NCBI RefSeq assembly: GCF_900236475.1
Contig: NZ_LT963352.1
Location: 1,736,001 to 1,800,000 of the forward strand
Length of the DNA: 64,000 nt
Source: Streptomyces chartreusis NRRL 3882
Lineage (GTDB): Bacteria; Actinomycetota; Actinomycetes; Streptomycetales; Streptomycetaceae
Reading direction: 5' to 3'
Shown: positions 18,053-45,993 of the stretch, piece after piece
How the letters are laid out: each line of letters opens with the position of its first letter
Numbering within the stretch: position 1 is the first letter of the stretch
Made by a program: the position numbers and the translations under genes
The notes under the pieces: generated by a model
Database searches by the model: none
The model's input: the letters and a program-made list of their open reading frames with translations, nothing else
What the model was told of the DNA's origin: nothing

Positions 18053-18273
18053 GGCGGCTTCCCTCCGGTCGGTTACACGGCTGCGTCGCGTGACGGCCGT
18101 GGGTGTCAAGGAGGTGGTGCGGGTGGTCGTGCGGGACCGGGCGTACGTGGACGGGGTGGCCGTTCCGGGGCGCGCGCGTTTACGCACGCCCCGGAGACGA
18201 CCGCCGTGGACCCCGCTCGGGTCCGCGGCCACCGGCCGGGAGCCGTCCCTCCCGGCCGGAGTCATCCGGGTGG

Positions 18274-19653: not shown

Positions 19654-19773
19654 GGTTCGTCCTTTGCGCTGAGAGGGAGGGGGCACGGCAGGACCCGGGG
19701 AGTTTGAGTGCCGTGGCCGAGGAGAAGGGTTCCCCGGCCACGGGTGCCGAAAGAGGGAACGTCGGAAGGGACG

Positions 19774-20697
19774 TCAGAGGTTGGTGAGCTCCACCGGGAT
19801 CTTCGCCTCGCAGCCGTCCCGCAGGATCGTCGCCTCGATCAGGCCGTAGGGCCGGTCGGCGGCGAAGTACACCTCGTTGTCGTTCTTCAGCCCGAACGGC
19901 TCCAGGTCCACCAGGAAGTGGTGCTTGTTCGGGAGGGAGAAGCGGACCTCGTCGATCTCGCTGCGGTTGTTGATGATCCGCGCGCCCATCTGGTAGAGCG
20001 TCTGCTGGAGCGAGAGGGAGTACGTCTCGGCGAAGGCCTGGAGCATGTGCTTCTTCGTCTGCTCGTAGGACTTCTCCCAGTTGGGCATGCGCTGGTCGTC
20101 GTCGGTCCAGTTGAACCGCCAGCGGCCGGAGACCTGGGTGGCCAGGATGCGGTCGTAGGCCTCCTTCAGCGTCGTGTACTTGTCCTTGACGTAGCCCCAG
20201 AACTCGGAGTTGGTCGAGTTCATCACGACGAGGTCCTTCAGGCCCGAGATCACCTCCCACGACGTGCCGTCGTAGGTGATCTGGGTCAGCCGGACCTCCT
20301 GGCCCTTGCGGACGAAGGAGTGCTTGACCTCGTCGGCGCCGATGAACTGCGAGTTGGCGTCGGAGGCCTCGATCCGCTCCCAGGCGTACTCCTCGATGCG
20401 GATCCGCGCCCGGTGGATCGGCTCCTGGCTGGTGACGAAGTGGCGGGCGAGGTGGATGCCGAACTGCTCGGCGGACTCGATGCCGTGTTCCTTGGCGAAC
20501 GCGTACACCGTGTTCTTGGTGGTGTCCGTGGGGAGCACGTTGGCGTTCGAGCCGGAGTAGTGGACCTCTTCCATGTCGCCGCTCAGCGACACCGAGACGT
20601 TCAGGTCCTTGATGTGGTGGGTGGCGCCGTCCCGCGTGATCTTGACGACTCGGTTCTCGGCCTTGCCGTACTGGTTCTGTCCCAGAATGGTGGGCAT
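19774..20697 (-). CDS. uox: Urate oxidase (uricase)
   Basis: A 307-residue cofactor-free uricase. The N-terminal GQNQYGKAENRVVKI, the catalytic YTTLKEAYDRILATQVSGRWRF segment and the NKHHFLVDLEPF motif are diagnostic. It oxidises urate to 5-hydroxyisourate and releases hydrogen peroxide. It is the third gene of the uraD-uraH-uox operon, seven bases after uraH, followed by the deaminase. The neighbouring catalase locus shares an operator-like sequence with this operon, consistent with removal of the peroxide made here. Confidence 0.96.
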   Translation of the reverse strand: MPTILGQNQYGKAENRVVKITRDGATHHIKDLNVSVSLSGDMEEVHYSGSNANVLPTDTTKNTVYAFAKEHGIESAEQFGIHLARHFVTSQEPIHRARIRIEEYAWERIEASDANSQFIGADEVKHSFVRKGQEVRLTQITYDGTSWEVISGLKDLVVMNSTNSEFWGYVKDKYTTLKEAYDRILATQVSGRWRFNWTDDDQRMPNWEKSYEQTKKHMLQAFAETYSLSLQQTLYQMGARIINNRSEIDEVRFSLPNKHHFLVDLEPFGLKNDNEVYFAADRPYGLIEATILRDGCEAKIPVELTNL

Positions 20698-20703
20698 GAG
20701 TAG

Positions 20704-21120
20704 CTAGCTCCCTCGGTATACGGAGTAGCCGAACGGGTTGAGCAGCAGCGGTACGTGGTAGTGCTCGCCCGGCACGACGGTGAACGTGATCGCCACCTCC
20801 GGGAAGAACACACCGGCGCCGCTGTCCCGATTCGCGGGGGCGTCCTGCTGCGCATCGGCTTCGCTTTTCGCGTCGTTCGCGAACTTCTTCTCGAAGTACG
20901 GCTCGACGGCGAAGTCGAGCCGTACGTGGGTGGTCCCCTCCGGCAGGGCCGGAAGGTCCTTGCACCGGCCGTCCGCGTCGGTCGCGGAGCCGCCGAGCGC
21001 CTGCCAGTGGGCCGCACGCCCGCTGCGGGCGGAGAGCTGGACCGCGACGCCCTCGGCGGGGCGGCCGGCGCTGGTGTCCAGGATGTGTGTGGACACGGAC
21101 GCGGTGGCGGAGGTGCTCAT
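20704..21120 (-). CDS. uraH: 5-hydroxyisourate hydrolase
   Basis: A 138-residue transthyretin-like hydrolase. It ends with the diagnostic YRGS tetrapeptide and has the N-terminal STHILDTSAGRPAEGV (catalytic His) and the EHYHVPLLLNPFGYS segment. It hydrolyses 5-hydroxyisourate to OHCU. Slightly long for the family because of an Ala/Asp-rich loop around residues 78-98. It is the middle gene of a tight three-gene operon, seven bases after uraD. Confidence 0.95.
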   Translation of the reverse strand: MSTSATASVSTHILDTSAGRPAEGVAVQLSARSGRAAHWQALGGSATDADGRCKDLPALPEGTTHVRLDFAVEPYFEKKFANDAKSEADAQQDAPANRDSGAGVFFPEVAITFTVVPGEHYHVPLLLNPFGYSVYRGS

Positions 21121-21127
21121 GCTGCTG

Positions 21128-21637
21128 TCAGTCCTCTTCGACGAGTCGGGCCAGGCGGATGCGGTTGATCTTCCCCAGTTCGGTGCGGACGATCTCCCGC
21201 TCCCGCTCCGGCGTGTTGCCGATCCGCTCCCTGACCGCGTCGCGCATCTGCTCGCCGGTCCGGCCGGTGGCGCAGATCAGGAAGACATGGCCGAACCTCT
21301 CCTGGTAGGCGAGGTTCAGCTCCAGCATCTCCGCCTTGAGCTCGTCGGAGGCGCCGGCCATGCCGCGCTGCTCCCGGGCCGAGGCGGGGTCGCCGGGTTT
21401 CGGGCGGCCGATGGGCGGGTGGCCGGCGATCGCCTCCGCGAGGTCCTCTGCCGTCAGCTCCGCCATGGCGGCGTCGCTCGCGGCGTAGAGCGCCTCGGGG
21501 GTGGCGTACGGGCGGGCGGCGAGCAGCCGCTTCGCCCACGCCGTGGAGGCGCACGCCTCGTGGAGCGCGGTGAAGGCCGCGTGCTCCTCGAGAGCGTTGA
21601 ACCGGGCCAGGCCCGGCGGCGTGGAAGTGGAAGTCAC
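21128..21637 (-). CDS. uraD: OHCU decarboxylase
   Basis: A 169-residue 2-oxo-4-hydroxy-4-carboxy-5-ureidoimidazoline decarboxylase. The catalytic His lies in AGHPPIGRPK, and the substrate-binding segment EMLELNLAYQERFGHVFLICATGRT is well conserved. It makes (S)-allantoin. I chose the GTG at 21637; the frame is open to 21712 but without similarity. It is the first gene of the urate operon; the 143-base upstream gap contains a palindrome identical to one before the catalase. Confidence 0.94.
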   Translation of the reverse strand: MTSTSTPPGLARFNALEEHAAFTALHEACASTAWAKRLLAARPYATPEALYAASDAAMAELTAEDLAEAIAGHPPIGRPKPGDPASAREQRGMAGASDELKAEMLELNLAYQERFGHVFLICATGRTGEQMRDAVRERIGNTPEREREIVRTELGKINRIRLARLVEED

Positions 21638-21711
21638 GGGAGCCTCCGTGGCCGGGTACGGCCTTCGTGCTGAACGGGCGTGCCGATAGCTAACGCCCTC
21701 CCGCGACAGCA

Positions 21712-21729
21712 CGTCAACAGTTTGTTGAA
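21712..21729. promoter_or_regulatory. Operator candidate, urate operon (exact match to a site before the catalase)
   Basis: CGTCAACAGTTTGTTGAA, containing the palindrome TCAACA-GTT-TGTTGA (21714-21728). It lies 75-92 bases upstream of uraD. The same 18 bases occur once more in the window, on the opposite strand at 49647-49664, before the catalase. Likely the binding site of a purine-pathway regulator, perhaps the DauR-type regulator encoded next door. Confidence 0.65.
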
Positions 21730-24396: not shown

Positions 24397-25164
24397 TCAG
24401 GTGGTGAAGAGGATCACCGACACCGTGACGCCGATGGTCACCACCGTCCAGCGCAGCAGTTCCTCGTTCATCCAGCGGGACACCTTCGCACCCAGGTAGC
24501 CGCCGACCAGGGCGGTCGGGGCGGCGACGAGTGCCATGGCCCAGTCGACGGGGCCGAAGAGGGCGAAGATCAGCAGGGTGACGGTCGAGTTGACGAGGGA
24601 GAGTGCCGCCTTGAGCGCGTTGAGGCGGTGCAGGCTCTCGGACGTGGTCATGGCCAGCGACACCAGCATGATCACGCCGAGCGCGCCGGCGAAGTAGCCG
24701 CCGTACACGCCGGCCGCGGTCATGACCACCGCCAGGGGGACGACCCGCTCGCGGCGCTCATCGCCGGTGGCCGAGCCCGCCGCCCGCACCAGCCTCTTCA
24801 CCTGCTTCTGGCCGGCCAGCAGCAGGCTCGCGAAGAGCACCAGGGCCGGTACGAACGTGTCGAAGCTCTTGCTGCTGGTGACCAGCAGCAGCACCGAGCC
24901 GGCCACCGTACCGACGGCGGTGAGCACCGACAGAAGCACCATCCGGGCTCTCGGCTCGGACTTCAGCTCGGGTGCGAATCCGTAGACCTGCCCCGCGAAT
25001 CCCGGCCAGTTGGCCACGGAATTCGTGACATTTGCGGCCTGGGTCGGAAGGCCGACTCCGACCAGTGCCGGAAAGAGCAGCAAGGAGCCGCCACCGGCTA
25101 TGGAGTTCACGGCACCGGACAGCAATCCGGCCACTGCGACGACCGCCAGAACGCCCCACTCCAT
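24397..25164 (-). CDS. TSUP (TauE/SafE) family membrane transporter
   Basis: A 255-residue membrane protein with about eight hydrophobic segments. The duplicated family signatures are SGAVNSIAGGGSLLLFPALVGVGLP near the start and YGGYFAGALGVIMLVSL in the second half. TSUP proteins move sulfite, sulfoacetate or other small organic anions, usually outward. It is the last minus-strand gene of the island, 163 bases after the FAD oxidoreductase gene. It could export a small acid or sulfur compound related to the pathway; the substrate is unknown. Confidence 0.85.
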   Translation of the reverse strand: MEWGVLAVVAVAGLLSGAVNSIAGGGSLLLFPALVGVGLPTQAANVTNSVANWPGFAGQVYGFAPELKSEPRARMVLLSVLTAVGTVAGSVLLLVTSSKSFDTFVPALVLFASLLLAGQKQVKRLVRAAGSATGDERRERVVPLAVVMTAAGVYGGYFAGALGVIMLVSLAMTTSESLHRLNALKAALSLVNSTVTLLIFALFGPVDWAMALVAAPTALVGGYLGAKVSRWMNEELLRWTVVTIGVTVSVILFTT

Positions 25165-25327: not shown

Positions 25328-26377
25328 TCAGCCGACCACCCCCAGGACCAGATCGGCCGCCTCCCGGGCGATGGCCGGGGCGAGCCGGTACCCGCAGCCG
25401 TTCGCGGCACCGGCGAACACCACGCGCCCCCCGTCGTCCACCACGTCGACGACCGGTTCCCGGCCCGGGCTGTAGGCGTCGCAGAAGACGCGGCCCGAGC
25501 CCGCGTGCTCGACGAGTGCGGGCGCCCACCTGCGCAGCGTGCCGCGCGCCTCCTCCACGTCCTCGGCGCTCAGGCCCCGGGCCACCGTGCCGGGGTCGAC
25601 GTCCCACTCCGTGCGGGTGAAGCTGTACAGCCAGTGCCCCCGCTCGGGCAGCGGCAGCAGGAAGGCGTCGTCGTCCTGGAAGACGATCGCGCCGTCCGTC
25701 GGGGCCGGGCTCCGCTCGATGTGCAGGGCGACCACCTTCTTCACCCGGGCCCCCGACGGCGCGACGAACGGCGCCAGCGCCGGGTCGGCGGTCCACGGCC
25801 CGGGCGCCAGCACCACCCGGTCGGCGGTGAGCGTGTCGCCCGTGCTCAGCCGCAGCAGCACACCACCGCTCCCCGGCCGCACGGCCGTGACGGCGACGCC
25901 CTCGCGGAAGTCGACGCGGGACCGCAGCTCCCGGGCGAGCGCGCACGTCAGGTCCTGGACGACGGTGTGGTGTCCGCCGCTCACCCGCCAGACGGACGCG
26001 TCCGCCGGGATGCCGACGGCCGGGAGGTCCGGGTGCTGCGCGCGGACGGGCTCGGCACCGGCCAGGTACGTCTCGCGGACCGCCCGGTCGTCTGCCGTGG
26101 CGGACACCACGGACACGGCCGTCGCGTGGATCGGCAGCGTGGGCCGCTCGCGCCGGAGCCGGTCGTAGTAGTCCTGGCTGTACCGGGTCATCGCCCGCAG
26201 CCGCTCGGTCGCGCCCCGCGGCAGGTGCAGGCCGGCCGAGCGGCGGCTGGCGCCGCTGCCGATCGCGTCCCGGTCCAGGACGGCGATCGTGGCGTGCGGT
26301 TCGCGCGCGGCCAGCTCCCGCGCCACGAGGCAGCCGATGATCCCGGCGCCCACCACGGCGATCCGGATTCCTGCCAT
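25328..26377 (-). CDS. FAD-dependent amino acid oxidase (DAO/glycine oxidase family)
   Basis: A 349-residue flavoprotein. The ADP-binding motif is at the start (IRIAVVGAGIIGCLVARELA), GASRRSAGLHLPRGA follows, and the C-terminus has FCDAYSPGREPVVD...VVFAGAANGCGYRLAPAIA, the DAO-family FAD closure. It should oxidise an amine next to a carboxylate with O2. In the known cupin/MetRS hydrazine pathways an oxidase of this family cleaves the lysine-derived adduct to release a hydrazino acid; this gene follows the N-monooxygenase by six bases and is the best candidate for that step. Confidence 0.85.
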   Translation of the reverse strand: MAGIRIAVVGAGIIGCLVARELAAREPHATIAVLDRDAIGSGASRRSAGLHLPRGATERLRAMTRYSQDYYDRLRRERPTLPIHATAVSVVSATADDRAVRETYLAGAEPVRAQHPDLPAVGIPADASVWRVSGGHHTVVQDLTCALARELRSRVDFREGVAVTAVRPGSGGVLLRLSTGDTLTADRVVLAPGPWTADPALAPFVAPSGARVKKVVALHIERSPAPTDGAIVFQDDDAFLLPLPERGHWLYSFTRTEWDVDPGTVARGLSAEDVEEARGTLRRWAPALVEHAGSGRVFCDAYSPGREPVVDVVDDGGRVVFAGAANGCGYRLAPAIAREAADLVLGVVG

Positions 26378-26383
26378 CGGCGA

Positions 26384-27775
26384 TCACGCTCCCTGCGGGA
26401 ACTTGTCGACGGCCGGCTGCGAGGACCACCTCAGGAAGGAGTCGCACTGCTCCTCGGTCTTGACGCCCAGCATCCGGTCGAGGATCCGGCGGCTGCGCCA
26501 GGCGATCAGGCTGAGGTTGGGATCGGCCAGGCCACGCTGCCGGCGGACGCCGTTCTGGACGAAGATGCCGTGGTCGGGCGGTCCGTCCCAGCACGCGGCG
26601 AAGTCCCGGTCGACGCGGATCTCCTCGTCCTCCCACTCCAGCCGGCCGGCGAGCGGCGCCAGCATGTCCGGGCGGGCCGGCCGGAATCCGGTCGCCCAGA
26701 CGACGACGTCCGCGGTGAGCCGTTCGACGGCACGCGGCCGGTCCCCCGGCTCCAGGGTGAGCTCCCAGGCGCCGTCGCCGCCGCTCACCTCGGTGACGGT
26801 GCGGTCGGGGTACAGCGCGATGAGCTTCTGGTCGCCCTCCACGAAGTGGCGGGTGTAGCAGCGCTGGTAGATCTCCTTGAGGGTGGCGGGGGAGACACCG
26901 TCGCTGGCCAGGAGCTGCCGGTCGTTGAACGCCTCGCGCTGGGCGCGGTCGAGCCCGAAGAAGTGGTCGGAGAAGGAGGGCGTGAAGTAGTCGTTGGTGA
27001 ACGGCGAGTCGTCGATGGGGAAGAAGTTGTCGCGCCGGGATATCCACGCCACATGAGCCGGGCGCTCCCCCTCCGGCCGGGAGATCAGGTCCAGGAAGGC
27101 CTCCGCGCCGGACTGCCCTCCGCCCACCACACCGACCCGCCGTCCGCCCAGCCCGCCGGACCGCCGCACGAAGTCGCTGACGTGGAACTGCGACTCCCCC
27201 AGCAGACCGCGGGCGTGCTCGGGCACCCAGGGCCGGTTGCCGATGCCGAGGGACACGTGGTCCGCGGTCAGGGTGCGTTTGCTGGTCCGGATCACGAAGA
27301 CCCGGTCGAAGTCGACGGACAGGACCTCCTCACCGAAGGTGACGTTCTCGTTCTTGCGGCTCGCCCACTCCAGATAGTTGCGGAACTCCCGGCGCGGCAT
27401 GGCATCGAACTGGGCGTTGACGAAGTGGTAGATCATCCCCTGGTCGTGGAGGTAGGACAGGAACGAGAACTTGTTCGTCGGATCGGCCAGCGTGACCAGG
27501 TCCTTGAAGAGCGACACCTGGAGCGTGGCCCCGGCGATCTGCTGGTCGTCGTGCCATCCGAAGGTCTCCCGGCGCTCGACGAACAGGCTGGTCATCTCGG
27601 GGTGGCCGTGCAGCAGGGAGGCGAGGCTCAGGTTGGCCGGGCCGACACCGATGCCCACACAGCCGAAGTGCGGGCCGTCCGGTCCGCGTCGAAGGGTATC
27701 CACCGTGCCGATCTCCCGTGTCTCGGAGGCCTGACGGACTGTGCGCGCGGTCCGGGCCGCGCTCGGGCCGGTCAC
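26384..27775 (-). CDS. L-lysine/L-ornithine N-monooxygenase (N-hydroxylating, FAD)
   Basis: A 463-residue N-hydroxylating monooxygenase. The FAD motif GIGVGPANLS is at residues 41-50, the substrate region LFKDLVTLADPTNKFSFLSYLH at about 89-110, the NADPH loop GVVGGGQSGAE at about 215-225, and ATGFRP near 375. Such enzymes (IucD, SidA, PvdA) hydroxylate the side-chain amine of lysine or ornithine. No siderophore genes lie in the island; its neighbours are the hydrazine-forming pair, so N6-hydroxylysine as nitrogen donor is the likely role. The GTG start overlaps the stop of the oxygenase gene (GTGA). Confidence 0.92.
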   Translation of the reverse strand: MTGPSAARTARTVRQASETREIGTVDTLRRGPDGPHFGCVGIGVGPANLSLASLLHGHPEMTSLFVERRETFGWHDDQQIAGATLQVSLFKDLVTLADPTNKFSFLSYLHDQGMIYHFVNAQFDAMPRREFRNYLEWASRKNENVTFGEEVLSVDFDRVFVIRTSKRTLTADHVSLGIGNRPWVPEHARGLLGESQFHVSDFVRRSGGLGGRRVGVVGGGQSGAEAFLDLISRPEGERPAHVAWISRRDNFFPIDDSPFTNDYFTPSFSDHFFGLDRAQREAFNDRQLLASDGVSPATLKEIYQRCYTRHFVEGDQKLIALYPDRTVTEVSGGDGAWELTLEPGDRPRAVERLTADVVVWATGFRPARPDMLAPLAGRLEWEDEEIRVDRDFAACWDGPPDHGIFVQNGVRRQRGLADPNLSLIAWRSRRILDRMLGVKTEEQCDSFLRWSSQPAVDKFPQGA

Positions 27776-28755
27776 CGGACCAGTACGTTGCCGTCGTTGG
27801 GGCGGTGCTGGCGGGAGCGCCGCAGGTCGGTCAGGACGAAGGTGCGCTGCAACCAGCGGTCACGCCCGTCGTAGCGCGGCCGGTAGGCGGTACGCCCGTG
27901 CAGCGTGACCCGGTTGTCCACGATGGCCAGGTCCCCGGGCCGCAGCCGGAACTCCATGGCCTGCGCGTGGCAGGCCGACTCCAGCTCGGCCAGGGCGAGT
28001 TCGGCCTGTCCGCTGCGGGGGGTGGTGGCGGCGAAGTCGACCCTCAGGTCCGGGTCGAAGAGGTCGCCGACGAGTACGGCGTGCTCGGTGACGTGGTTGT
28101 TCCGCCCGCCGAAGGAGGGCGGCGGCGCGGTGACGTAGTCGGCGCGGTAGAGCGCCTCCCGGTCCACCCAGCTCAGCATCGGCAGGATCTGCCGGATGCA
28201 GGAGGTGCGCAGTCCCGCGACTCCTTCGTGGTCGGACCGCAGGCACATGAGCAGGACGAAGTCGGGGCGGTGGGCGTGGAAGGCGTTCTCGGTGTGGAAG
28301 GTCAGTTCCACGGAGCCCGGATTGCCCTGCACCTCCTCCTCGCCCGGCACCGGCACCACGTTCTGCACGAGGGCGCCGTTCTTCTCCGGCCGGAAGGCGG
28401 CCGGGTCCCCGAGGCCGCGGGCGATCATCATCAGGACGGCGGCCGAGACGGACGGCTCCGACTGGACGGAGTCGAGGGTGGCGGGCGTGTCGGGCAGGGT
28501 GTCCTCGCCCACGGGCAGTCCGCGCAGCAGCAGGACGCCCTGATCGCCGGAGTGGCGGCGGAACCTGCTGACGGCCTGCCGGAGTTCCGCCGGCAGATGG
28601 TGCCAGGCGTCGCCGGCCGCCGCGGTCCAGGCCGCGCCGTCCACCGGCCCCTCGACGGCCGTGAGTTGGTCCGACGTCTCCCGTACGGCTTTCGTCACGG
28701 TGTCGTCGAAGGCGAGCACGTGGTCGCCGACCCTGCTGAGTGTTGCGGTGGACAT
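27772..28755 (-). CDS. Fe(II)/2-oxoglutarate amino acid hydroxylase (clavaminate synthase/VioC-like)
   Basis: A 327-residue double-stranded beta-helix oxygenase. The iron ligands are H154-x-E156 (LTFHTENAFH) and H286 (VTLHGRTAY), with a 2-oxoglutarate-binding Arg about 14 residues later (GRDRWLQR). The HxE variant, rather than HxD, is typical of the AsnO/VioC/KDO group that hydroxylates free amino acids such as Asn, Arg or Lys. It could hydroxylate lysine or the hydrazine adduct. It starts three bases after the stop of the small upstream gene and overlaps the monooxygenase gene by four bases. Confidence 0.87.
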   Translation of the reverse strand: MSTATLSRVGDHVLAFDDTVTKAVRETSDQLTAVEGPVDGAAWTAAAGDAWHHLPAELRQAVSRFRRHSGDQGVLLLRGLPVGEDTLPDTPATLDSVQSEPSVSAAVLMMIARGLGDPAAFRPEKNGALVQNVVPVPGEEEVQGNPGSVELTFHTENAFHAHRPDFVLLMCLRSDHEGVAGLRTSCIRQILPMLSWVDREALYRADYVTAPPPSFGGRNNHVTEHAVLVGDLFDPDLRVDFAATTPRSGQAELALAELESACHAQAMEFRLRPGDLAIVDNRVTLHGRTAYRPRYDGRDRWLQRTFVLTDLRRSRQHRPNDGNVLVR

Positions 28756-28756
28756 C

Positions 28757-29137
28757 TCATCCCCCCTCGGGTGCGGATTCTGTCGGCTTGGTGGCGGCGG
28801 CGCGGGACGGGATCTCCTCGATGGCGGAGGTGCCCTTCGCGGGAGTCGGCTGGTAGCGCTCCCACTCCTCGTGCAGCACGATGCGGCCGTCGTCGAGCCG
28901 TTCGGGCGTGCTGACACACCGTCCGACGGCGATCTCGCCGCTGTTCAGGACCAGGGTGTAGCCCATGGTGATGACGCCGTCGGCGTCGCACGTCCCGGCC
29001 AGGGCGCAGCGGCGGACATCGCCCCCGTCGGCCTCCGCCCATACGAGGTCGCCGTCCTGGTGGTACGTGGCCACGGGTGCGGTGCCGTCAGGCCCCGCCT
29101 CGGTGTTGCGGAACGTTCTGCCGTTGTAGTCGATCAC
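28757..29137 (-). CDS. Small conserved protein (annotated elsewhere as N-acetylglutamate synthase-like)
   Basis: A 126-residue beta-rich protein: MIDYNGRTFRNTE, then repeated strands (GDLVWAEADGG, GVITMGYTLVLNSGEIAVGRC, RIVLHEEWERY). This is a widespread lipocalin-like family often mislabelled N-acetylglutamate synthase; it lacks any GNAT or amino acid kinase motif. Its true function is, as far as I know, unproven. The C-terminal ~25 residues are disordered and Pro/Glu/Ala-rich. It overlaps the end of the upstream flavoprotein gene by 50 bases and precedes the oxygenase, so it is probably part of the operon. Confidence 0.65.
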   Translation of the reverse strand: MIDYNGRTFRNTEAGPDGTAPVATYHQDGDLVWAEADGGDVRRCALAGTCDADGVITMGYTLVLNSGEIAVGRCVSTPERLDDGRIVLHEEWERYQPTPAKGTSAIEEIPSRAAATKPTESAPEGG

Positions 29138-30341
29138 GCGTCGTCTCCTGTGTGGTGGGGGTCGTGGCCGGGTCGCCCGGACCGGCGGCGACGGGGTGGT
29201 CCAGTGGGCGCAGACCGGTCGGGGCGGGCGGCACGCCGCCGAACCGGCTCGCCAGTGTGCGGGCGGTGAGCGGGGCGAACTTGAACGCGCCGCCGCCGCA
29301 GGCGCAGTGGGCGAGGACGGCTCCCCCGCCCAGGTCGGCGAGCAGGGCGCCGCCGGATGTGCCGTCGGTGACGTAGTGGCAGTCGCGGGTGCCGACGACC
29401 CACTCCGGCCGCAGACCCGGGACCAGTTCGGTGAACCGGCTCGCCAGGTCCCCGGCGGGCGTCTGGTCGGGCTCGGGAGCGCCGGGCTCGGCCACGACCC
29501 TGCGGAACGCGTCGGTCGACAGCTTCAGCGGGGTGCCGGCGACCGGCGGGACCAGCCAGGCTCCCCACGGGATGCCGGAGGCGGGCACGGCGGGCGTGCC
29601 ACGCCATCGCTCCCGCTCCCGGGGCGGCGGATCGCAGTACACCATGGTCTGCCGGTGCACGGTCAGCCGCCCGGCCAGGGCCGGCGGCAGCAGGGCCCGC
29701 GACCAGGCCCCCGTCGCCAGCAGCACCCGGTCGCCGCGCAGTGTCCGGCCGTCCTCGACCGTCACCGCCCGGGCAGCCGCGTCGACCGCCGTGACCGTGG
29801 TGTGCGGCAGCAGCCGGGCCCTGGGCTGGGCGCCGAGCCAGCGGACCGCCGCCCCGAGCACCCGGTCGGCGAGGAGCACTCCGGTGTCCTCCTCCAGGAC
29901 GGCGCCGAAACCGGCCGGGAAGGCCAAGTGTCCGTAGGTCTCGGCCAGTTGCCGTGGTGCGAGCACCTGGGCCGGGAGGCCGGCCCGCGTCAGCCCGGCC
30001 GCTGCGGAGGCGGTCTCGCCGGCCGGCAGCGCGGTCAGCACGCCCGTGCGGTACAGGAAGCGGGCGTCCAGCAGCGACTCAAGCTCCCGCCACAGCCCGT
30101 GCGCGGTGACGGCCGCGCGGGTGGCGCCGGCATCGTGCGGGTGCAGGGCCCGCATCACCCGGTGCCGGTCGTGGGAGGAGGAGCCGGGGTGGGGCAGGGG
30201 GCCCCGTTCGAGGACGGTGACGTGCTGCCCCGCCCGGACGCATTCCACCGCGGTGAGCAGTCCGACCGATCCGCCGCCCACCACCAGGGTGTGCGGATCC
30301 CCTCGGGCCGGGCCCCCGTTCGTCCCCCGCACGGTGCTCAC
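29088..30341 (-). CDS. FAD-dependent N-alkyl amino acid oxidase (monomeric sarcosine oxidase-like)
   Basis: A 417-residue flavoprotein. TLVVGGGSVGLLTAVECVRAGQHVTVLERG (residues ~18-47) binds ADP. Cys321 in GTRDCHYV aligns with the cysteine that carries covalent FAD in monomeric sarcosine oxidase, and CACGGGAFKFAP matches its C-terminal GxGFKFAP closure. This family oxidises secondary amines next to a carboxylate, which is what an N-N adduct of lysine and another amino acid contains. The C-terminal ~45 residues look disordered. The GTG start overlaps the MetRS-like stop (GTGA). Confidence 0.85.
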   Translation of the reverse strand: MSTVRGTNGGPARGDPHTLVVGGGSVGLLTAVECVRAGQHVTVLERGPLPHPGSSSHDRHRVMRALHPHDAGATRAAVTAHGLWRELESLLDARFLYRTGVLTALPAGETASAAAGLTRAGLPAQVLAPRQLAETYGHLAFPAGFGAVLEEDTGVLLADRVLGAAVRWLGAQPRARLLPHTTVTAVDAAARAVTVEDGRTLRGDRVLLATGAWSRALLPPALAGRLTVHRQTMVYCDPPPRERERWRGTPAVPASGIPWGAWLVPPVAGTPLKLSTDAFRRVVAEPGAPEPDQTPAGDLASRFTELVPGLRPEWVVGTRDCHYVTDGTSGGALLADLGGGAVLAHCACGGGAFKFAPLTARTLASRFGGVPPAPTGLRPLDHPVAAGPGDPATTPTTQETTRDRLQRQNVPQHRGGA

Positions 30342-31960
30342 TCCCCCGGCCGCTCACCGGCGTGGCCGAGGAACGGCACCGGGAAGGCGGTGACCTCCCC
30401 GGCGTCCGCCAGGGCCTCGTCCAGCGTGCCGTCCCAGCCGCCGGTCCGGCGGGCCTCCTCGGCGAGGTCGATGAGGATCGGCGAGGCGCCCGCGATCAGG
30501 ACGCGCAAGTCCAGGAAGAGGTCGCCGAGGGCCTCGGCCCGTGCCGGGGCGGGCAGTTCCGCGAGCCGGGCCGTCGCCCTGCCCAGCCGGTCCAGCTGTG
30601 CCACCAGGAGGTCGGCGGCGGTGGACGGGCTGTAGCCCTGGATCTCGTAGGCGTCGACGAACCGGTCCAGCACGGCACGGGCCCGCCGCCGGGCCGCGCC
30701 GGACACGGGCAGCGTTCCCGGGGTGGTGCCGGCGGCCGGGGCGAGGGCGCCGGCGATCCGGTTCCAGGGCCCGACGAGCCGGTCCCGCGTGACCTTCACC
30801 AGCCCGTCCCGGCTGAAGTTCGTCCGCTGGTGCTCCGGTCCGGTGAGCGCCAGATGGAACCGGAACGCGTCGCGGCTGACGAGGCCGAGCACCTCGTCGA
30901 TGTAGACGACGTGGCCCCGCGTGGTGGAGAACTTGTCGTCCTCCAGTTCGTAGAACTCGTTGGAGACGATGTGGTCGGGCAGGGCGTACCGGCCGTCGTG
31001 GGCCATCAGCAGGGCCAGGTGGGTGAGGCCCCAGAAGTAGACGATGTCGGAGCCGATGAAGTAGATGATCTCCGGGTCGTGTTCGGGGTGCCAGAGCTCC
31101 TTGCCCGCGACGCGCGGGTCGGCCACCCGGCGGGCCGCGTAGTCGGTGCAGAACATCGCCGCCGGGATGCCCTCCACCCATGCGTTGAGCCGCTGCCCCT
31201 CGGTGCCGGGGAAGGGCGAGGGCAGCCCGTGGGCGACGGGGTAGGTGACCGGGAAGTCGGGCAGCGGCCGGGCCAGTGCCTCGCGGAGGAACTTCAGGGT
31301 GCGGGGCCGCAGCCCCGACTCGCGGGTCTGGTAGAAGGACGTGAGCCGTTTGCGGTACTGCTCCATGGGCAGCACCAGCACCTGATGCTCGCGTGTGGTG
31401 ACGGGTGCGGCCGGGTCCAGGGTGGACCACGGGTCGATGAGTTCGTCGAAGTTGTTGGGGTGGCCGCACATCTCGCAGACGCCGCCGCGGCTCTCGGTGA
31501 CGCAGACCGGGCAGTAGCCGCCGACCAGTCCCTCGACGAGGACCTCACCCGTGCGCGCGTCGCAGGGGAAGGAGACGGTACGCAGCTCCAGCTTGCCCGC
31601 GTCGTACAGGTCGGTGACGAAGCGCAGGGCGTTCGCCCGGTAGGCGTCGTCGTAGGGGGCGTAGCCGTCCACGGAGATGCCGGCGGCCTGGAGGGTCCGC
31701 CCGATCGCCGCGTGGTGGACGGCGGCCAGTTCCTCGGGGGTGGTGCCGCTGCGGCGCGCGCCGGCCATGACGTAGGTCTGGCTGTCGTCGGTCCCCGTGG
31801 AGAAGACGACGGGTCGGCCGCGGGCGCGCAGGTACCGGGCGTGGATGTCGGCCGACAGGAACGGACCGGCCAGGTGCCCGATGTGGAGGTCGCCGTTGGG
31901 GGTGGGTGAGGTGTCGATGATGACGGCGGGCCGGGAACCCCCCGGTGAGGTCCCTGCCAT
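30338..31960 (-). CDS. Methionyl-tRNA synthetase-like enzyme, hydrazine synthetase component (inferred)
   Basis: A 540-residue class I aminoacyl-tRNA synthetase-like protein. It has the ATP motif HIGH (residues 26-29), a zinc knuckle C150-x2-C153...C162-x2-C165, and KFSTTRG (343-349) replacing KMSKS. A helical C-terminal part follows, without an EMAP-type tRNA-binding domain. It is not a housekeeping enzyme by context. In s56-p1, pyrazomycin and triacsin pathways a MetRS-like domain activates an amino acid and esterifies it to N6-hydroxylysine; a cupin domain then makes the N-N bond. There the two are fused; here the cupin is the preceding gene. I use the ATG at 31960; GTG 31963 is possible. 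Confidence 0.85.
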   Translation of the reverse strand: MAGTSPGGSRPAVIIDTSPTPNGDLHIGHLAGPFLSADIHARYLRARGRPVVFSTGTDDSQTYVMAGARRSGTTPEELAAVHHAAIGRTLQAAGISVDGYAPYDDAYRANALRFVTDLYDAGKLELRTVSFPCDARTGEVLVEGLVGGYCPVCVTESRGGVCEMCGHPNNFDELIDPWSTLDPAAPVTTREHQVLVLPMEQYRKRLTSFYQTRESGLRPRTLKFLREALARPLPDFPVTYPVAHGLPSPFPGTEGQRLNAWVEGIPAAMFCTDYAARRVADPRVAGKELWHPEHDPEIIYFIGSDIVYFWGLTHLALLMAHDGRYALPDHIVSNEFYELEDDKFSTTRGHVVYIDEVLGLVSRDAFRFHLALTGPEHQRTNFSRDGLVKVTRDRLVGPWNRIAGALAPAAGTTPGTLPVSGAARRRARAVLDRFVDAYEIQGYSPSTAADLLVAQLDRLGRATARLAELPAPARAEALGDLFLDLRVLIAGASPILIDLAEEARRTGGWDGTLDEALADAGEVTAFPVPFLGHAGERPGE

Positions 31961-31963
31961 CAC

Positions 31964-32326
31964 TCAGGCCTCCCCGCGGTGCCGGGCGAGGAAGCCCTCC
32001 GCGGTCTCGGGGGTCCACCAGGCCGTGTACATCTGGAAGTCCTCCGTCCCCTCGTTGTGCACCTGGTGGTCCGTGTCCGGCGGGAAGTGGACGATGTCCC
32101 CCTCGCGGAAGGGCACGCGCTCGCCCCGGGATTCGAGGACCGCCTCGCCGGACAGGGCGATGAAGATCTCGTAGTCGGGGTGGGCGTGCCGGGTGGTCGA
32201 GGATCCCGGGTGGACCACGCACCAGGCGCCTTTGAAGGGGGCGTTGAGGGCGGACCAGGGGAGCAGGGGCTGCGAGAAGCCGTTCTCCGGCCCCAGCGTG
32301 CCGCGGTCGAGGCTGCGCATTTCCAT
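31964..32326 (-). CDS. Small cupin, probable N-N bond-forming partner of the MetRS-like protein
   Basis: A 120-residue single cupin. The metal ligands are H47-x-H49-x3-E53 and H87 (RHAHPDYEIFIALSG...FPPDTDHQVHN), all present. Known hydrazine synthetases carry a zinc-binding cupin domain that rearranges the aminoacyl ester of N6-hydroxylysine to the hydrazine. This cupin stops one codon before the MetRS-like start, so the two are translationally coupled, which supports one working unit. The start is set at ATG 32326; GTG 32335 and ATG 32320 are alternatives. The frame is open upstream but without cupin similarity. Confidence 0.82.
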   Translation of the reverse strand: MEMRSLDRGTLGPENGFSQPLLPWSALNAPFKGAWCVVHPGSSTTRHAHPDYEIFIALSGEAVLESRGERVPFREGDIVHFPPDTDHQVHNEGTEDFQMYTAWWTPETAEGFLARHRGEA

Positions 32327-32540: not shown

Positions 32541-33539
32541 TCAGAGGCGGGCGGCGATCTCCCGCATCCGGCGGTGGGCTCCGCCGTACCCGGGTCTGTC
32601 CGGGAGCAGGGCCTTGGGCACCTTCGTGGCGACGGTGTAGTCCGTGTCGACGACGTTCGCCAGCGGTGTGCGGGAGATCTGGGAGAGCAACTGGTAGGCG
32701 TCGAGCCGGTCGAGGCCGTGGAGTTCGCTCAGCCAGTTCACCATCTGCACCTGCGAGACGCGCCAGGCGTCCTCCAGGGGCCGGGCACACCCGAGGGTGA
32801 TCAGGTACGCGTCGTTCTCGATGCGCGGCCAGGCGGGCGCGCCGCCCTTGATCAGGTCCACGACGAGGGTCACGTTCATGGCGCCCTCGACGGCGGTGCC
32901 GCACGACTCGCCCTCGCCCTGCCGGTAGTGGCCGTCGCCGACGGAGAACAGCGCGCCGTCGACGTTGACCCCGAGGTAACACGTGACACCGGCCCGCATC
33001 TCGGGGGTGTCGAGGTTGCCGCCGTGGGCGCCCGCCGCCAGCGAGGAGCGCACCTCCCCGCCCTGCGGGGCCACGCCCACCGTGCCGAGCATGGGGGCCA
33101 GGGGCAGGTCGACCGTGAACTCACCGGCCGCCGCCTCGAAGCGAATCGTTTCGGCATCCGGGTCGACCTGGTAGATCCAGGTCCGTTCCGGGAGCGGGTC
33201 CTGCAAGGTGGCGGTGCGATCGGTGGAGGTGAGCCCGCCGAATCCGGCGACGAGGGTGGAGACGCCCCAGTCACGGGCCGGGGTCAGCTCGGCGATGTGC
33301 AGGACCAGGGTGTCGCCGGGTTCCGCCCCTGCTACGTGGAAAGGGCCGGTCTGCGGATTGAATCTGCCGTTCCGGATTCTCTCGCCGGGCAGGTGGGAAT
33401 TCTTGTGGAGCAGACCGCTGAAGGCGTCCTCGGTCCACAGTCTCAGGGCCGTTCCGGGGCGTAATCGGGAAATCGCTTGCGCCCCGCCGAACGTCCAGCT
33501 GAGCTGAGCGGGCGACGGCACGAATTCGAAGGTGTCCAT
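32541..33539 (-). CDS. Acetamidase/formamidase family amidohydrolase
   Basis: A 332-residue FmdA/AmdA-type amidase. Recognisable parts are GPFHVAGAEPGDTLVLHI, the metal-binding GAHGGNLDTPEM, LFSVGDGHYRQGEGESCGTAVE and the C-terminal PLANVVDTDYTVATKVPK. These enzymes cleave formamide, acetamide or small N-formyl compounds and could remove a formyl group or release ammonia in the pathway. Residue 26 is a TTA codon (33462-33464), a mark of bldA-dependent translation in Streptomyces. The ATG has GGAGAG upstream. It lies 214 bases before the cupin gene; that gap shows no gene. Confidence 0.88.
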   Translation of the reverse strand: MDTFEFVPSPAQLSWTFGGAQAISRLRPGTALRLWTEDAFSGLLHKNSHLPGERIRNGRFNPQTGPFHVAGAEPGDTLVLHIAELTPARDWGVSTLVAGFGGLTSTDRTATLQDPLPERTWIYQVDPDAETIRFEAAAGEFTVDLPLAPMLGTVGVAPQGGEVRSSLAAGAHGGNLDTPEMRAGVTCYLGVNVDGALFSVGDGHYRQGEGESCGTAVEGAMNVTLVVDLIKGGAPAWPRIENDAYLITLGCARPLEDAWRVSQVQMVNWLSELHGLDRLDAYQLLSQISRTPLANVVDTDYTVATKVPKALLPDRPGYGGAHRRMREIAARL

Positions 33540-34721: not shown

Positions 34722-35351
34722 TCAGCCGATGGCCTGGTACGCGAGCACGCCGCCGAAGAAGATGACGCCCACGCCCGCCAGGAGGTCCACGCCCTGGAGC
34801 ATCCGGGAGGTGAACCAGCGGCGGAACAGCATGGCCCCGGCGCTGAGGGTGGTGAACCACAGCAGCGTGCCGGAGCCGACGCCGACGAGCATGGCGAGCG
34901 AGTCCGCGAGCGTGTCGGTGACGTTCGCCGCCGTGGCGGCGGCGAAGGCCGCCGCCCAGTAGCCGATCGTCGCCGGGTTGGCCGCCGTCGCCGTGAGAGC
35001 CGTACGGAAGGCCTCCCACGGCTGCACCGTCTCGCCCTCGGTGTCGACGACCGCGCTCCTGGCCCGGAAGGCCGAACGCACGGAGCGGAAGCCCAGATAC
35101 GCCATGACCACGGCACCGGCGAGCCCGAGCGCGGTCCGCAGCACCGAGATGTCCAGCAACTTGCCGACACCCGCGAGGCCCAGGCCGGCGTACAGCACGT
35201 CGATGGCCGCCGCGCCGAGGCCGATGGCGAATCCGCACAGAAAGCCGTTGCGCAGCACACTGCGCACGCACAGCAGCCCGATGGGACCGAGTGGCAGTGC
35301 GACGAGGAAGCCGAGTCCCAGACCCGCGCTCCAGGCCGGAATCACGCTCAC
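34722..35351 (-). CDS. LysE/RhtB-type amino acid exporter
   Basis: A 209-residue membrane protein with six hydrophobic segments. The start (SAGLGLGFLVALPLGPIGLLCVRSVLRNG) is the LysE-family signature; ALTATAANPATIGYWAAAF carries the conserved NP motif. LysE proteins export lysine, arginine or related basic and small amino acids. In this context export of the amino-acid-like product or relief from lysine analogues is likely. The start is GTG at 35351 (GGGGGAGC upstream). It follows the HemN-like gene by 98 bases and may be the last gene of that operon. Confidence 0.87.
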   Translation of the reverse strand: MSVIPAWSAGLGLGFLVALPLGPIGLLCVRSVLRNGFLCGFAIGLGAAAIDVLYAGLGLAGVGKLLDISVLRTALGLAGAVVMAYLGFRSVRSAFRARSAVVDTEGETVQPWEAFRTALTATAANPATIGYWAAAFAAATAANVTDTLADSLAMLVGVGSGTLLWFTTLSAGAMLFRRWFTSRMLQGVDLLAGVGVIFFGGVLAYQAIG

Positions 35352-35449
35352 CGTCTGCTCCCCCGCCGCACCACGCCGTTCACCCCGGCCCCCGATAAAC
35401 GGGTTTGCGCCAATTCCCCCGCCTCCTTGCGGCACACCCGTCGGTCAGG

Positions 35450-36748
35450 TCATTCGACGAGTTCGGATATGCCGAAGCGTACCTCACCGGGGGCCGCGGG
35501 ACTCAGGTCCTCCGGCGCGTAGAACATCTCGTAGACATTCGTGGACAGCAGTTGGCCGGCCCGGGTCAACGAATACACGTCGTCGCCCTGCTTTTCCAGC
35601 CAGCCCTTGTCGAGAAGCTGTTCCAGTTCGCTGCCGAAGACGTCCTCCATCGTGACCCCGAACCGGTTCTCGAAGTCGTGACGGTAGATCTCGCACATTT
35701 TCAGGCCACGGATCATGACCCGGCGCATCTCCTGCTCCTTGGTGAGATACGTGGCGAAATCGAGCGGGACCTTCCCCTCCTCCACCAGCTCGTAGTACTG
35801 CTTGAGCGGCTTGACGTTCACGAACAGCCGGTCGTGGATCACGCTCTTCGACGACACGCCGAAGCCGATCATCGGCCAGGTGCGCCAGTAGTACTCCAGG
35901 AACCGCGAGTAGTCCTCGCAGCGGTCGGGGTGGTAATAGCCCGTCGAGCTGCGGCGCTTGAACCCGGCCGCCTCCAGGGCCTCGATGGCGTACACGTACA
36001 TGCGCTCTTCGTCCTCGGGCGTCGGCAGCGCCATCTTCTCGGACTTGATCAGCGAGTGGAACGCGGTCTTGGGCCAGATCTCCAGGCCGTAGGCGGTGAT
36101 GCAGGCGGGTTCCAGCTCGATCGCCCGGTCCACGCTGTGCTTCCAGTCGTCCAGGGACTGGTCGGGCAGCGGGAAGATCAGGTCGATGTTGGTGTGGGTG
36201 AAACCGCCGTCGACGATGGTCCGGTAGGCCCGCTCGGCGGTGGCCAGGTCGTGCGAACGGTTGCAGATCTGCAGCAGGCGGTCGTCGAAGGCCTGGACCC
36301 CCAGGTTGAGCCGGTTGAAGCCGGACTCGCGCATCCGCGCGATCTTGGCCTCGTCCACCGTCGACGGGTCGAACTCCAGGGCGATCTCCGCCCCTTCGTT
36401 GAACTCGAAGGACTCGCGGCACACGTCGAGCAGCCGGGCCGTCTGGTCGCCGGTGAGGATGCCGGGCGTACCGCCGCCGAAGTAGACGGCGTCCACACGG
36501 AAGGCGGGGAACACCCGGTTCGCGGCGAAGGCGCGGATCTCCTTCTCCAGGGCGTCGACGTACTGCGCGAAGTGCTGCTCGTTCTTGTTGATGTAGACGG
36601 TGTAGTCGCAGAACCCGCACTTGGTGATGCAGAACGGCACGTGCAGGTAGAGCACGGCGTTCTCGGGGCGGAAGTACTCCTCGTACTCGTGCTTGCGGTA
36701 CTTGAAGGGGTAGGTGTGGATGTTGCGGCGAACGATCTTCTCGGCCAT
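35450..36748 (-). CDS. HemN/HemW-like radical SAM enzyme
   Basis: A 432-residue radical SAM protein of the coproporphyrinogen dehydrogenase-like family. The 4Fe-4S ligands are C40-x3-C44-x2-C47 (CITKCGFC, followed by DY as in HemN). The SAM site is GGGTPG near residue 108, and the C-terminal HemN_C-like domain is present (VMIRGLKMCEIYR). HemN-like enzymes in natural product clusters do cyclopropanation, methylation or other radical chemistry, often using two SAM molecules. It is not the housekeeping heme enzyme by context, because it sits third in the ferredoxin/radical SAM operon. Confidence 0.85.
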   Translation of the reverse strand: MAEKIVRRNIHTYPFKYRKHEYEEYFRPENAVLYLHVPFCITKCGFCDYTVYINKNEQHFAQYVDALEKEIRAFAANRVFPAFRVDAVYFGGGTPGILTGDQTARLLDVCRESFEFNEGAEIALEFDPSTVDEAKIARMRESGFNRLNLGVQAFDDRLLQICNRSHDLATAERAYRTIVDGGFTHTNIDLIFPLPDQSLDDWKHSVDRAIELEPACITAYGLEIWPKTAFHSLIKSEKMALPTPEDEERMYVYAIEALEAAGFKRRSSTGYYHPDRCEDYSRFLEYYWRTWPMIGFGVSSKSVIHDRLFVNVKPLKQYYELVEEGKVPLDFATYLTKEQEMRRVMIRGLKMCEIYRHDFENRFGVTMEDVFGSELEQLLDKGWLEKQGDDVYSLTRAGQLLSTNVYEMFYAPEDLSPAAPGEVRFGISELVE

Positions 36749-36815
36749 CTGGCTGCTGCTCCTTGTCAGGCTCGCCGTGCGGCGGCGGAGGGGTGACCGG
36801 GCGGGAGGGGGGCCG

Positions 36816-38321
36816 TCAGCACAGCACCCGGAAGGGCTCGTAGCCGGTGGGCTGGTCCAGGGCGGGCCGGTCGTTGGGGACCACGGGGCGGCCGCAGGAG
36901 ACGAACAGGTCGTCGTACCGGTCCCGGGAGCGCGCCCGGTAGTCGGCCGTGGACCTGGCCAGCATCTTGATGACCTCCTCGGCCAGCATCAGCTGGTACT
37001 GGCACGACTCGTCGTTGAGGACGTTGACGTCGCCCGAGGCCACGTGGTTCTCCTGCCGGCAGCCGCCGCCGCACAGGTAGCGGGCCCAGCACGCGCCGCA
37101 CACGGGGTGCTCGTCGACCGAGCGCCGCCACTCGGGGTGCTCCCGGGTGATCCCCTCGGAGCCGGTGCCGACGTCGAAGCTCTCGTCGCCGACGAGGCGG
37201 TGGCAGGGGCTGATGCTGCCGTCGGGTGAGTGCGTGTAGTACGTCCGGCCGCCGGAGCAGAAGGCGAGGGCGGTGGCCCCCTCGGTGACCATCTGCACGG
37301 TCCGCTCGTACTCCAGCACGCCCTTGAAGCGGTTGTCGGGCGCGAAGAGGGACGGGTAGTGCAGCAGGAAGTCCTTGAACTGCTCGACGATGCCGGGCTG
37401 GAGGAAGTGGTTGATGTACTGGATGCCCTGCGGCTCGGAGAGCTTGCGGTCGCCGAGGGTGAGGGCGATGGGGACCTTCGTGTCCTTCTCCACCGGGTAC
37501 ACGCCCGGATAGATCTGGAAGTAGTCGAACAGGTCCAGCTGCCACAGGTCGTGCACGCTGTCCTTGAGGCTGGGCTCGCCGGTGGCGATCGTCATCCGCG
37601 CCACCAGCGTGATGTCGTCGCCGCACGCCTCCCGCAGCCGCCACAGGTTGCGCATGATCCGGTCGTAGGACCCCATGCCGTTCTTGGAGGGCCGGTTGGC
37701 GTCCTGGACCTCGCGACCGCCGTCGATGGAGACCGAGACGATGAAGCGGTACGCGCGGAACAGCTCCTCGATGCCCTGCGGCATCAGCGTGAGGTTGGTG
37801 GAGATGCGGTGCACGAACTCGGTGCCGTCCCGCTGCGAGACGGTCCGGGCGCGCTCGCAGATCTTCTGGATCACGGCAAAGTTCGCCAGCGGTTCGCCGC
37901 CGAAGAACTCGAAGCGGACACGCTGTCCGGGCACGGCGTTGCGCTCGATGAAGTCGAAGATCCAGGCGATCGAGTGCTCGCCCATGGCCTCGGTGATCCG
38001 GCCGTAGTCCCCGCCCTCGGCGAAGCAGTAGGTGCAGGCGAGGTTGCAGACGTTGGTGAGGTTGACGTTGACCGCGAAATCGGCCCCGTCGGACAGCGAA
38101 CTCTCCCGCAGCCGGGAGCGGTTGACGCCCTCGTCCGCGCCCACGGCTTGCCGCATGCGCTCCCACGCCTGCCGCTCCGGGGGCAACAGGCTGTCGACGC
38201 CTGACTCCAGGCGCTCGGCGGTGCCGGCCGGGGCCAGCAGCAGCCGGTGGTTGTCGGTGAGGAACACCGCGGAGGTGTCGTCGCTGAAGGGCAGCACGCG
38301 GTAGTCGGTTCCGTGCTTCAT
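36816..38321 (-). CDS. Radical SAM/SPASM-domain enzyme
   Basis: A 501-residue radical SAM enzyme. The cluster motif is C92-x3-C96-x2-C99 (CNLACTYCF), followed by FFGGEPLAN. Near the C-terminus is a SPASM domain with CGACWARYLCGGGC and later Cys residues that bind auxiliary Fe-S clusters. The ~90-residue N-terminal extension resembles the peptide-binding part of RiPP-modifying maturases. No precursor peptide gene was found near it, so a small-molecule substrate or a carrier is possible. It is separated by 41 and 67 bases from the other two radical SAM genes. Confidence 0.86.
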   Translation of the reverse strand: MKHGTDYRVLPFSDDTSAVFLTDNHRLLLAPAGTAERLESGVDSLLPPERQAWERMRQAVGADEGVNRSRLRESSLSDGADFAVNVNLTNVCNLACTYCFAEGGDYGRITEAMGEHSIAWIFDFIERNAVPGQRVRFEFFGGEPLANFAVIQKICERARTVSQRDGTEFVHRISTNLTLMPQGIEELFRAYRFIVSVSIDGGREVQDANRPSKNGMGSYDRIMRNLWRLREACGDDITLVARMTIATGEPSLKDSVHDLWQLDLFDYFQIYPGVYPVEKDTKVPIALTLGDRKLSEPQGIQYINHFLQPGIVEQFKDFLLHYPSLFAPDNRFKGVLEYERTVQMVTEGATALAFCSGGRTYYTHSPDGSISPCHRLVGDESFDVGTGSEGITREHPEWRRSVDEHPVCGACWARYLCGGGCRQENHVASGDVNVLNDESCQYQLMLAEEVIKMLARSTADYRARSRDRYDDLFVSCGRPVVPNDRPALDQPTGYEPFRVLC

Positions 38322-38362
38322 GTGTGTCTCCCCCTTGTCTCCCTGGTTGCCGGGACCGGGGC

Positions 38363-39799: not shown

Positions 39800-39875
39800 G
39801 GACTGTCCTTCCGTCAGGGAGAGGTGGGCAGTTGTGCCGTGCGGTGGTGCGGAGCGGAACCGTTTCGTCGGCGCG

Positions 39876-44115: not shown

Positions 44116-44149
44116 CGTGCCTTGCCTCCTGGCGGTCTTGCGGCGGTGG

Positions 44150-45949: not shown

Positions 45950-45993
45950 CGTTCCGCTTTCCGTAAGAGGTGCGTGAATTCCACCGTTGTTGT

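Follow-up and report, generated by a model that had tools for sequence, protein, structure and literature searches.

A conserved actinobacterial operon that appears to combine two lineages of N-N bond-forming enzymes

Described hydrazine synthetases and the Streptomyces chartreusis operon

The candidate tools for N-N chemistry include hydrazine synthetases, enzymes for which the determinants of the two substrates are poorly known. The present analysis concerns an eight-gene operon with separate cupin and methionyl-tRNA synthetase (MetRS)-like genes in a 64,000-nucleotide stretch of Streptomyces chartreusis NRRL 3882, hereafter the window (positions 1,736,001 to 1,800,000 on one 8.98 Mb contig, NZ_LT963352.1). 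According to the available part of Zhao 2021 (PMC8664883), hydrazine synthetases sometimes consist of two standalone proteins, and the split Rhodococcus jostii RHA1 system (RHS1, PDB 5UQP, and its partner), which couples Glu and whose cluster was found via a saccharopine-dehydrogenase homologue, has been characterized, with each half-reaction reconstituted and split gene pairs screened. This cluster, like the window, has separate cupin and MetRS-like genes together with a lysine N6-hydroxylase, and the predicted two-step chemistry is alike, but the cupins are distant (37.7 bits) and Asp63 of RHS1 is a His in the window protein. Albofungin biosynthesis is a further split case, in which Afn8, Afn9 and Afn18 (MetRS-like protein, cupin and lysine hydroxylase) are separate genes as in the window, a comparison based on the description in a 2024 review, likewise available in part (PMC11705231). 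In contrast, PyrN of the pyrazomycin pathway (PDB 9l8v) has a fused cupin, uses Glu, and carries Arg at the column of W311 in the window protein. The Spb38/Spb39/Spb40 hydrazinoacetate cassette of s56-p1 (with Tri26-28, AzsL-N and NngK-M) appears to have the same order of N-hydroxylating monooxygenase (NMO) and DAO-type oxidase genes as the window, where both group with homologues from loci with fused synthetases. Pathways of this type employ one fused, glycine-coupling synthetase, whereas the window has a split pair that appears to belong to another lineage: the cupin and MetRS-like domains are separate open reading frames (ORFs), and the latter lies outside the fused clade. An N-nitroglycine (NNG) cluster was ruled out as well, NngM being described, in the part of the source available, as fused and with an extra carrier domain. 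A description of the operon was not found in the literature searched, which mostly did not cover subscription papers, so that its absence from print is unproven.

We regard the operon, with a probability of roughly 0.72, as a hybrid in which a split-lineage MetRS-like/cupin pair is combined with an NMO and a DAO-type oxidase of the kind found at fused loci, and which likely makes a free hydrazino acid. The point of interest is this hybrid of two N-N lineages, which is conserved between genomes and has probably undergone a change of substrates, and not the split form, which was discarded as a novelty given that it has already been published (PMC8664883, PMC11705231, both available in part). A preliminary description of this DNA had proposed a two-subunit hydrazine synthetase, a prediction that is supported by the tree, the PyrN-like structure, the cupin ligands and the presence of the NMO. 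It had missed that the NMO and DAO appear to be of a different N-N lineage from the cupin/MetRS pair, and also that the cluster contains an AsnO-like hydroxylase, a second flavin oxidase, an FmdA-type amidase and a TauE-type transporter.

Separate histories of the synthetase and monooxygenase genes

The MetRS tree comprises 89 distinct loci and a true MetRS, drawn by similarity to the window protein and so favouring its own side; 77 of the 94 MetRS-like matches outside the window were fetched for comparison of gene content. NMO and MetRS trees yield largely the same groups except for six window-type loci, whose NMOs fall with the fused-locus group in the NMO tree (starred node, support 100). 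Approximately unbiased (AU) tests on 40 MetRS and 39 NMO rows reject the union of window-type and fused MetRS-like proteins (p 1.4e-57) as well as that of window-type NMOs with those of the sister clade (p 8.8e-28). A clade of fused-locus NMOs alone is also rejected (p 2.2e-5), which places the window-type NMOs among them. The identities point the same way: the window NMO (26384..27775; Pfam Lys_Orn_oxgnase, E 1e-92) is 57-65% identical to the NMOs at all but one of the 11 fused loci (42% at the exception, L044) and 27-37% identical to NMOs at the other loci giving a match, while the adjacent DAO-type flavin oxidase (25328..26377), predicted to be an Spb39-like hydrazine C-N-cleaving enzyme, is 53-60% identical to its counterparts at these ten loci, 40% to that of L044, and gave no blastp match at non-fused loci outside the window type. 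In the DAO tree, a starred set of 16 consists of 11 fused-locus and five window-type DAOs; the nominal window set of six includes an unrelated DAO from L047, leaving five orthologues, and the DAO of L003 lies beyond its contig end. With the stray L047 row included, the union with fused-locus DAOs has a p-AU of 0.319. Identities and trees together argue that the NMO and DAO come from one system and the cupin and MetRS-like protein, probably with the SoxA-like oxidase and the AsnO-like hydroxylase, from another; the two pairs would thus appear to derive from different N-N lineages, with the SoxA-like and AsnO-like enzymes assigned less firmly to that of the synthetase.

The NMO, which is encoded in the same cluster as the cupin and the MetRS-like protein, is predicted to be a lysine N6-hydroxylase of the Spb38 type. 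Its top PDB matches are an unnamed 'Monooxigenase' (188 bits) and a putrescine hydroxylase (170); MbtG scores 165 and 3s5w 139. At L045, a fused locus carried by a Streptomyces lavendulae plasmid, the genes between saccharopine dehydrogenase and N-acetyltransferase, both included, are arranged as in the azaserine (azs) cluster, which ties the fused-locus NMO/DAO type to the hydrazinoacetate route. By comparison, the NMO of the sister cassette L049, which has an ATP-grasp ligase and a DDAH-like protein among its neighbours, is closest to the L-ornithine 5-monooxygenase 3s5w (277 bits; MbtG 241).

The MetRS-like protein (30338..31960 from the ATG at 31960, or 541 residues if the start is GTG 31963; Pfam tRNA-synt_1g, E 4e-63) has a class I MetRS-like catalytic domain with HIGH (residues 27-30; 31874..31885), GSDIVYF (residues 304-310; 31034..31054) and KFSTT (residues 344-348; 30920..30934) motifs, the last within KFSTTRG (residues 344-350). 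Its identity as a true MetRS was ruled out by tree position and by the lack of an anticodon-domain match. In the tree, a check that the preliminary description had itself suggested, it lies apart from true MetRS and far from the genome's own enzyme, to which it is 24% identical, and its predicted structure is closest to PyrN. An Anticodon match is absent even at E 1, whereas the genome's own MetRS matches Anticodon_3 at E 5.6e-8. The earlier statement that the tRNA-binding tail is missing holds for sequence profiles; the predicted structure still has a helical bundle at its C-terminus, and this aligns with true MetRS chains as far as residues 528-541.

Six diagnostic positions (F225, I300, S305, I307, T348 and S363), picked because every one of the six window-type sequences has these residues and none of the 20 nearest relatives does, distinguish this lineage, and residues 305, 307 and 348 lie within active-site motifs. 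None of the 81 other MetRS-like proteins in the alignment has I307 (54 carry N), and T348, present in all six window-type proteins, is S in all 81 others. The active-site segments differ from those of all eight fused proteins shown, being unlike both Glu-type PyrN and the fused, presumably Gly-type, proteins. Substitutions of the S305/I307/T348 type may have retuned the enzyme to another N-hydroxy partner. The operon resembles a natural experiment, with a single partner system replaced, and the coincidence of a few fixed active-site substitutions with the predicted change of N-hydroxy partner makes the choice of hydroxylamine directly testable.

The standalone cupin (120 residues; 31964..32326; Pfam Cupin_2, E 1.5e-17) has the features of a hydrazine-synthetase cupin, namely the metal ligands and the invariant catalytic Glu. 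Its H47-A-H49-P-D-Y-E53 motif (32168..32188) supplies three of the four ligands including that Glu, and H87 (32066..32068) is the fourth; H47, H49, E53 and H87 align with H50, H52, E56 and H90 of PyrN, the ligand roles being those given in the available part of Zhao 2021 (PMC8664883). The cupin falls within a split clade of 30 rows (starred node, support 99), and is 45-60% identical to members of its own split clade, 26-34% to other split groups and 29-33% to the nine of 11 fused cupins giving a match.

The AsnO-like Fe(II)/2-oxoglutarate hydroxylase (27772..28755; ORF open from GTG 28917) is 58% identical to asparagine oxygenase AsnO (PDB 2og5) over 313 aligned residues (182 identical; 362.6 bits), with the HxE...H iron site of an AsnO-type beta-hydroxylase preserved as H208, E210 and H340. 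AsnO residue D241, which we take to be the Asn/Asp switch, is also conserved. The known AsnO serves a peptide antibiotic, while the window gene sits in an N-N cluster. An AsnO-like gene is present in the fetched region of all ten loci of the window MetRS clade, and none was found in the 45-60 kb surrounding each of L053-L057, the five outgroup loci. Since the gene tracks the MetRS clade and its product resembles AsnO, the most plausible second amino acid would be asparagine or 3-hydroxyasparagine. The available part of the 2024 review lists Gly, Ala, Ser, Glu and Tyr in this role (PMC11705231); if the assignment is true, it would extend this list and point to an undescribed product.

The eight genes form a recurring unit. 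Tblastn of the window proteins against four related loci, themselves found by similarity to the MetRS-like protein, recovered all eight with their order unchanged in Streptomyces sp. HD, S. natalensis and Actinokineospora enzanensis, the last of a different family from the window host, and the first six in order in S. afghaniensis, where the contig ends inside the NMO gene. Genome G233 also carries all eight. As the eight-gene order recurs in four other genomes and the first six genes in a fifth, the grouping is not due to chance. Beyond the eight genes, nothing further was common to A. enzanensis and the window within the stretch compared. Of the 394 Streptomycetaceae genomes sampled, a MetRS-like match (E 1e-60) is present in 85, and the window operon type was seen in four (the window's own, G184, G369 and G233).

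Predicted pathway and competing explanations

From gene content we infer a pathway whose reactions, lysine and asparagine substrates, step order and product are all predictions from sequence. The NMO would turn lysine into N6-hydroxylysine, and the MetRS-like protein would, with ATP and without tRNA, adenylate a second amino acid and esterify it onto the N-hydroxyl, whereupon the separate cupin would convert the unstable ester to an N-N bond by rearrangement. The Spb39-like DAO would cleave the C-N bond on the lysine side to free a hydrazino acid. Either ahead of the coupling step or following it, the AsnO-like enzyme would hydroxylate the second amino acid, most plausibly asparagine, at its beta-carbon, and the product would be modified by the SoxA-like oxidase (417 residues; 29088..30341; DAO domain 4.5e-28; PDB matches to sarcosine oxidase and NikD) and the FmdA-type amidase and exported by the TauE-type protein. 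A so far undescribed hydrazine-type amino acid is the likely product of the cluster, which occurs in several actinobacteria. More tentatively, and rather doubtfully as a complete account, a split synthetase from an ornithine-type, AsnO-linked cassette may have been moved onto a lysine hydroxylase and a C-N-cleaving oxidase, with its active site retuned (S305, I307, T348) and with a (hydroxy)asparagine-based hydrazino acid, made by neither parent pathway, as the product.

Several points weigh against the hybrid or its details. The catalytic roles of all operon proteins are predicted. The likeness of the adjacent NMO and DAO to the Spb38/Spb39/Spb40 cassette was judged from fused-locus homologues, and the putrescine hydroxylase and the unnamed monooxygenase outscore the lysine hydroxylase MbtG, so that the lysine substrate rests mainly on the grouping with fused-locus NMOs; the ornithine-like match of the sister clade comes from L049, one of four sister NMOs. 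For the cupin, the grouping of window and sister proteins has a support of 73, and its union with fused cupins is rejected weakly (p-AU 0.043). The union of the SoxA-like oxidase with those of the sister clade is 'not rejected' (p-AU 0.586) and no more, and the AsnO-like enzyme was linked to the split lineage by gene presence. Among the diagnostic positions, S305 occurs in 18 of the 81 other MetRS-like proteins and F225 and S363 in six each. The partner is not readable from the pocket, which has W311 where PyrN has Arg and lacks the W-P-E-M-S-Y-G stretch of most fused proteins; the review lists, in its available part, no Asn-coupling synthetase for a pocket comparison, and cites Matsuda 2024 for eight pocket residues (PMC11705231). 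Finally, the AsnO-like enzyme may have a different substrate or serve a separate unit.

That last possibility is part of an ordinary hydrazinoacetate route of the s56-p1/azaserine/NNG type, in which the split pair would use glycine while the AsnO-like enzyme makes a separate building block. The lysine-side chemistry would be identical, and the NMO and DAO types do match those beside fused synthetases, including L045 with its azaserine gene order; however, the MetRS active-site segments are unlike those of all eight fused proteins shown, the AU test rejects a grouping with the fused forms, and the AsnO-like gene accompanies ten of ten members of the window MetRS clade, making this route unlikely. 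The preliminary description had suggested that the two-gene arrangement may keep an ancestral state. Rooted on true MetRS, the sampled fused forms are indeed one clade nested among split ones, with which a greater age of the split form is compatible, although the root branches are long. As an explanation of the operon that involves no mixing of lineages, this is nevertheless very improbable: the NMO and DAO histories conflict with that of the MetRS-like protein, the AU tests already refute the part that denies mixing, and split pairs are common and were characterized before (PMC8664883, in its available part). A spare or stress MetRS that charges tRNA and sits in the cluster by chance deserves scarcely any credence, since, while the predicted structure shares the MetRS fold including the C-terminal helical bundle, the protein shows 24% identity to the genome's own MetRS and no anticodon-domain match, is retained beside a cupin and an NMO in other loci, and is structurally closest to PyrN.

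Split and fused forms, gene layout and neighbouring genes

The preliminary description's view of the split form as less usual, and as one that may allow the half-reactions to be separated, is superseded by Zhao 2021 (PMC8664883, in its available part), where split pairs and separated half-reactions had both been described, and the impression of rarity is corrected by the tree sample. Two of the 89 loci (L123 and L124) group with true MetRS; among the remaining 87, 59 have a cupin outside the MetRS ORF, 11 are fused and in 17 a cupin was not found, so that split is the commoner form in this similarity-drawn sample. A locus counts as 'split' here when its fetched region contains a cupin at any place other than the MetRS ORF; at L102 this cupin is a short fragment, and at L098 it is 4.3 kb off on the opposite strand. 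The MetRS-like relatives listed, 120 of 809, are all 378-573 residues long, which leaves no room for a fused cupin such as those sampled. All 11 fused proteins fall in a single clade (starred node, support 99) within the split ones, as do nine of them in a later tree (support 100/99, starred). PyrN lies in the same part of that tree, and since the AU test does not reject a clade uniting it with the rest of the fused forms (p-AU 0.241), a separate fusion event was not demonstrated.

Other loci in the sample differ in composition. Split NMO-cupin-MetRS cassettes occur on plasmids of Deinococcus ficus, Pantoea ananatis (from onion) and Klebsiella variicola (L040, L041 and L042), with a SidA-type NMO alongside the split pair. 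Seventeen loci (L062-L064, L066-L070, L074, L077 and L080-L086) have a MetRS-like gene, an NMO gene within about 7 kb and a SoxA-like oxidase, and a cupin was not found in their fetched regions; their pathways may end with an acylated hydroxylamine or rely on a different N-N enzyme. L062, the one of the 17 that was scanned, carries two copies of the NMO gene along with ATP-grasp ligases and an acyl-CoA-dehydrogenase-like gene. Among solved structures, two cupins without a functional name, 4rd7 (124.8 bits) and plu4264 (4mv2/4q29; 102.8 bits for 4mv2), are far nearer to the window cupin than RHS1 (5uqp, 37.7 bits), and may be unrecognized N-N-forming cupins.

All operon genes lie on the minus strand and are transcribed from right to left across the window coordinates. 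The positions given in the preliminary description for the NMO, the MetRS-like protein and the cupin are correct, as judged by Pfam matches, motifs and ligands; the strand had been left unsaid, and no plus-strand translation at these positions corresponds to any of the three. The probable first gene encodes the FmdA/AmdA-type amidase (332 residues; 32541..33539; Pfam FmdA_AmdA 7e-25; 210 bits to PDB 5ubu, a putative acetamidase/formamidase), and the last gene of the conserved cluster the TauE/SafE-type membrane transporter (24397..25164; Pfam TauE 7.7e-37). In the locus-by-locus comparison of gene content, the FmdA-type gene was present in the six window-type loci and in none of the others, and the TauE-type gene was seen in window-type loci only, with none at L003, whose contig ends inside the NMO gene. 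The description of the genes as tightly overlapping fits some junctions, i.e., cupin/MetRS (abutting), MetRS/SoxA and AsnO/NMO (4-base overlaps) and NMO/DAO (6-base gap), but not FmdA/cupin (214 bases), DAO/TauE (163 bases) or SoxA/AsnO (332 bases from the AsnO ATG, 170 from its first GTG).

Upstream of the operon, S. afghaniensis and S. sp. HD have genes in common with the window. The block at 34722-40235 (a LysE-type exporter, two radical-SAM genes and a 4Fe-4S ferredoxin) is possibly a second small cluster; it is common only to S. afghaniensis among the four loci compared, and its radical-SAM part (35450-40235) was for this reason rejected as part of the operon. Genes for a pyridoxal phosphate-type decarboxylase, a DAO-type oxidase and peptidase C26/glutamine-amidotransferase-like proteins (42652-47396) recur in S. 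sp. HD, again upstream of the operon, with two unknown genes in between. S. natalensis additionally has in common with the window the flavin mononucleotide-dehydrogenase and carboxymuconolactone-decarboxylase-like genes past TauE. A uric acid catabolism block in the window (16664-21712; permease, amidohydrolase, uricase, HIUase and OHCU decarboxylase) is an ordinary neighbour.

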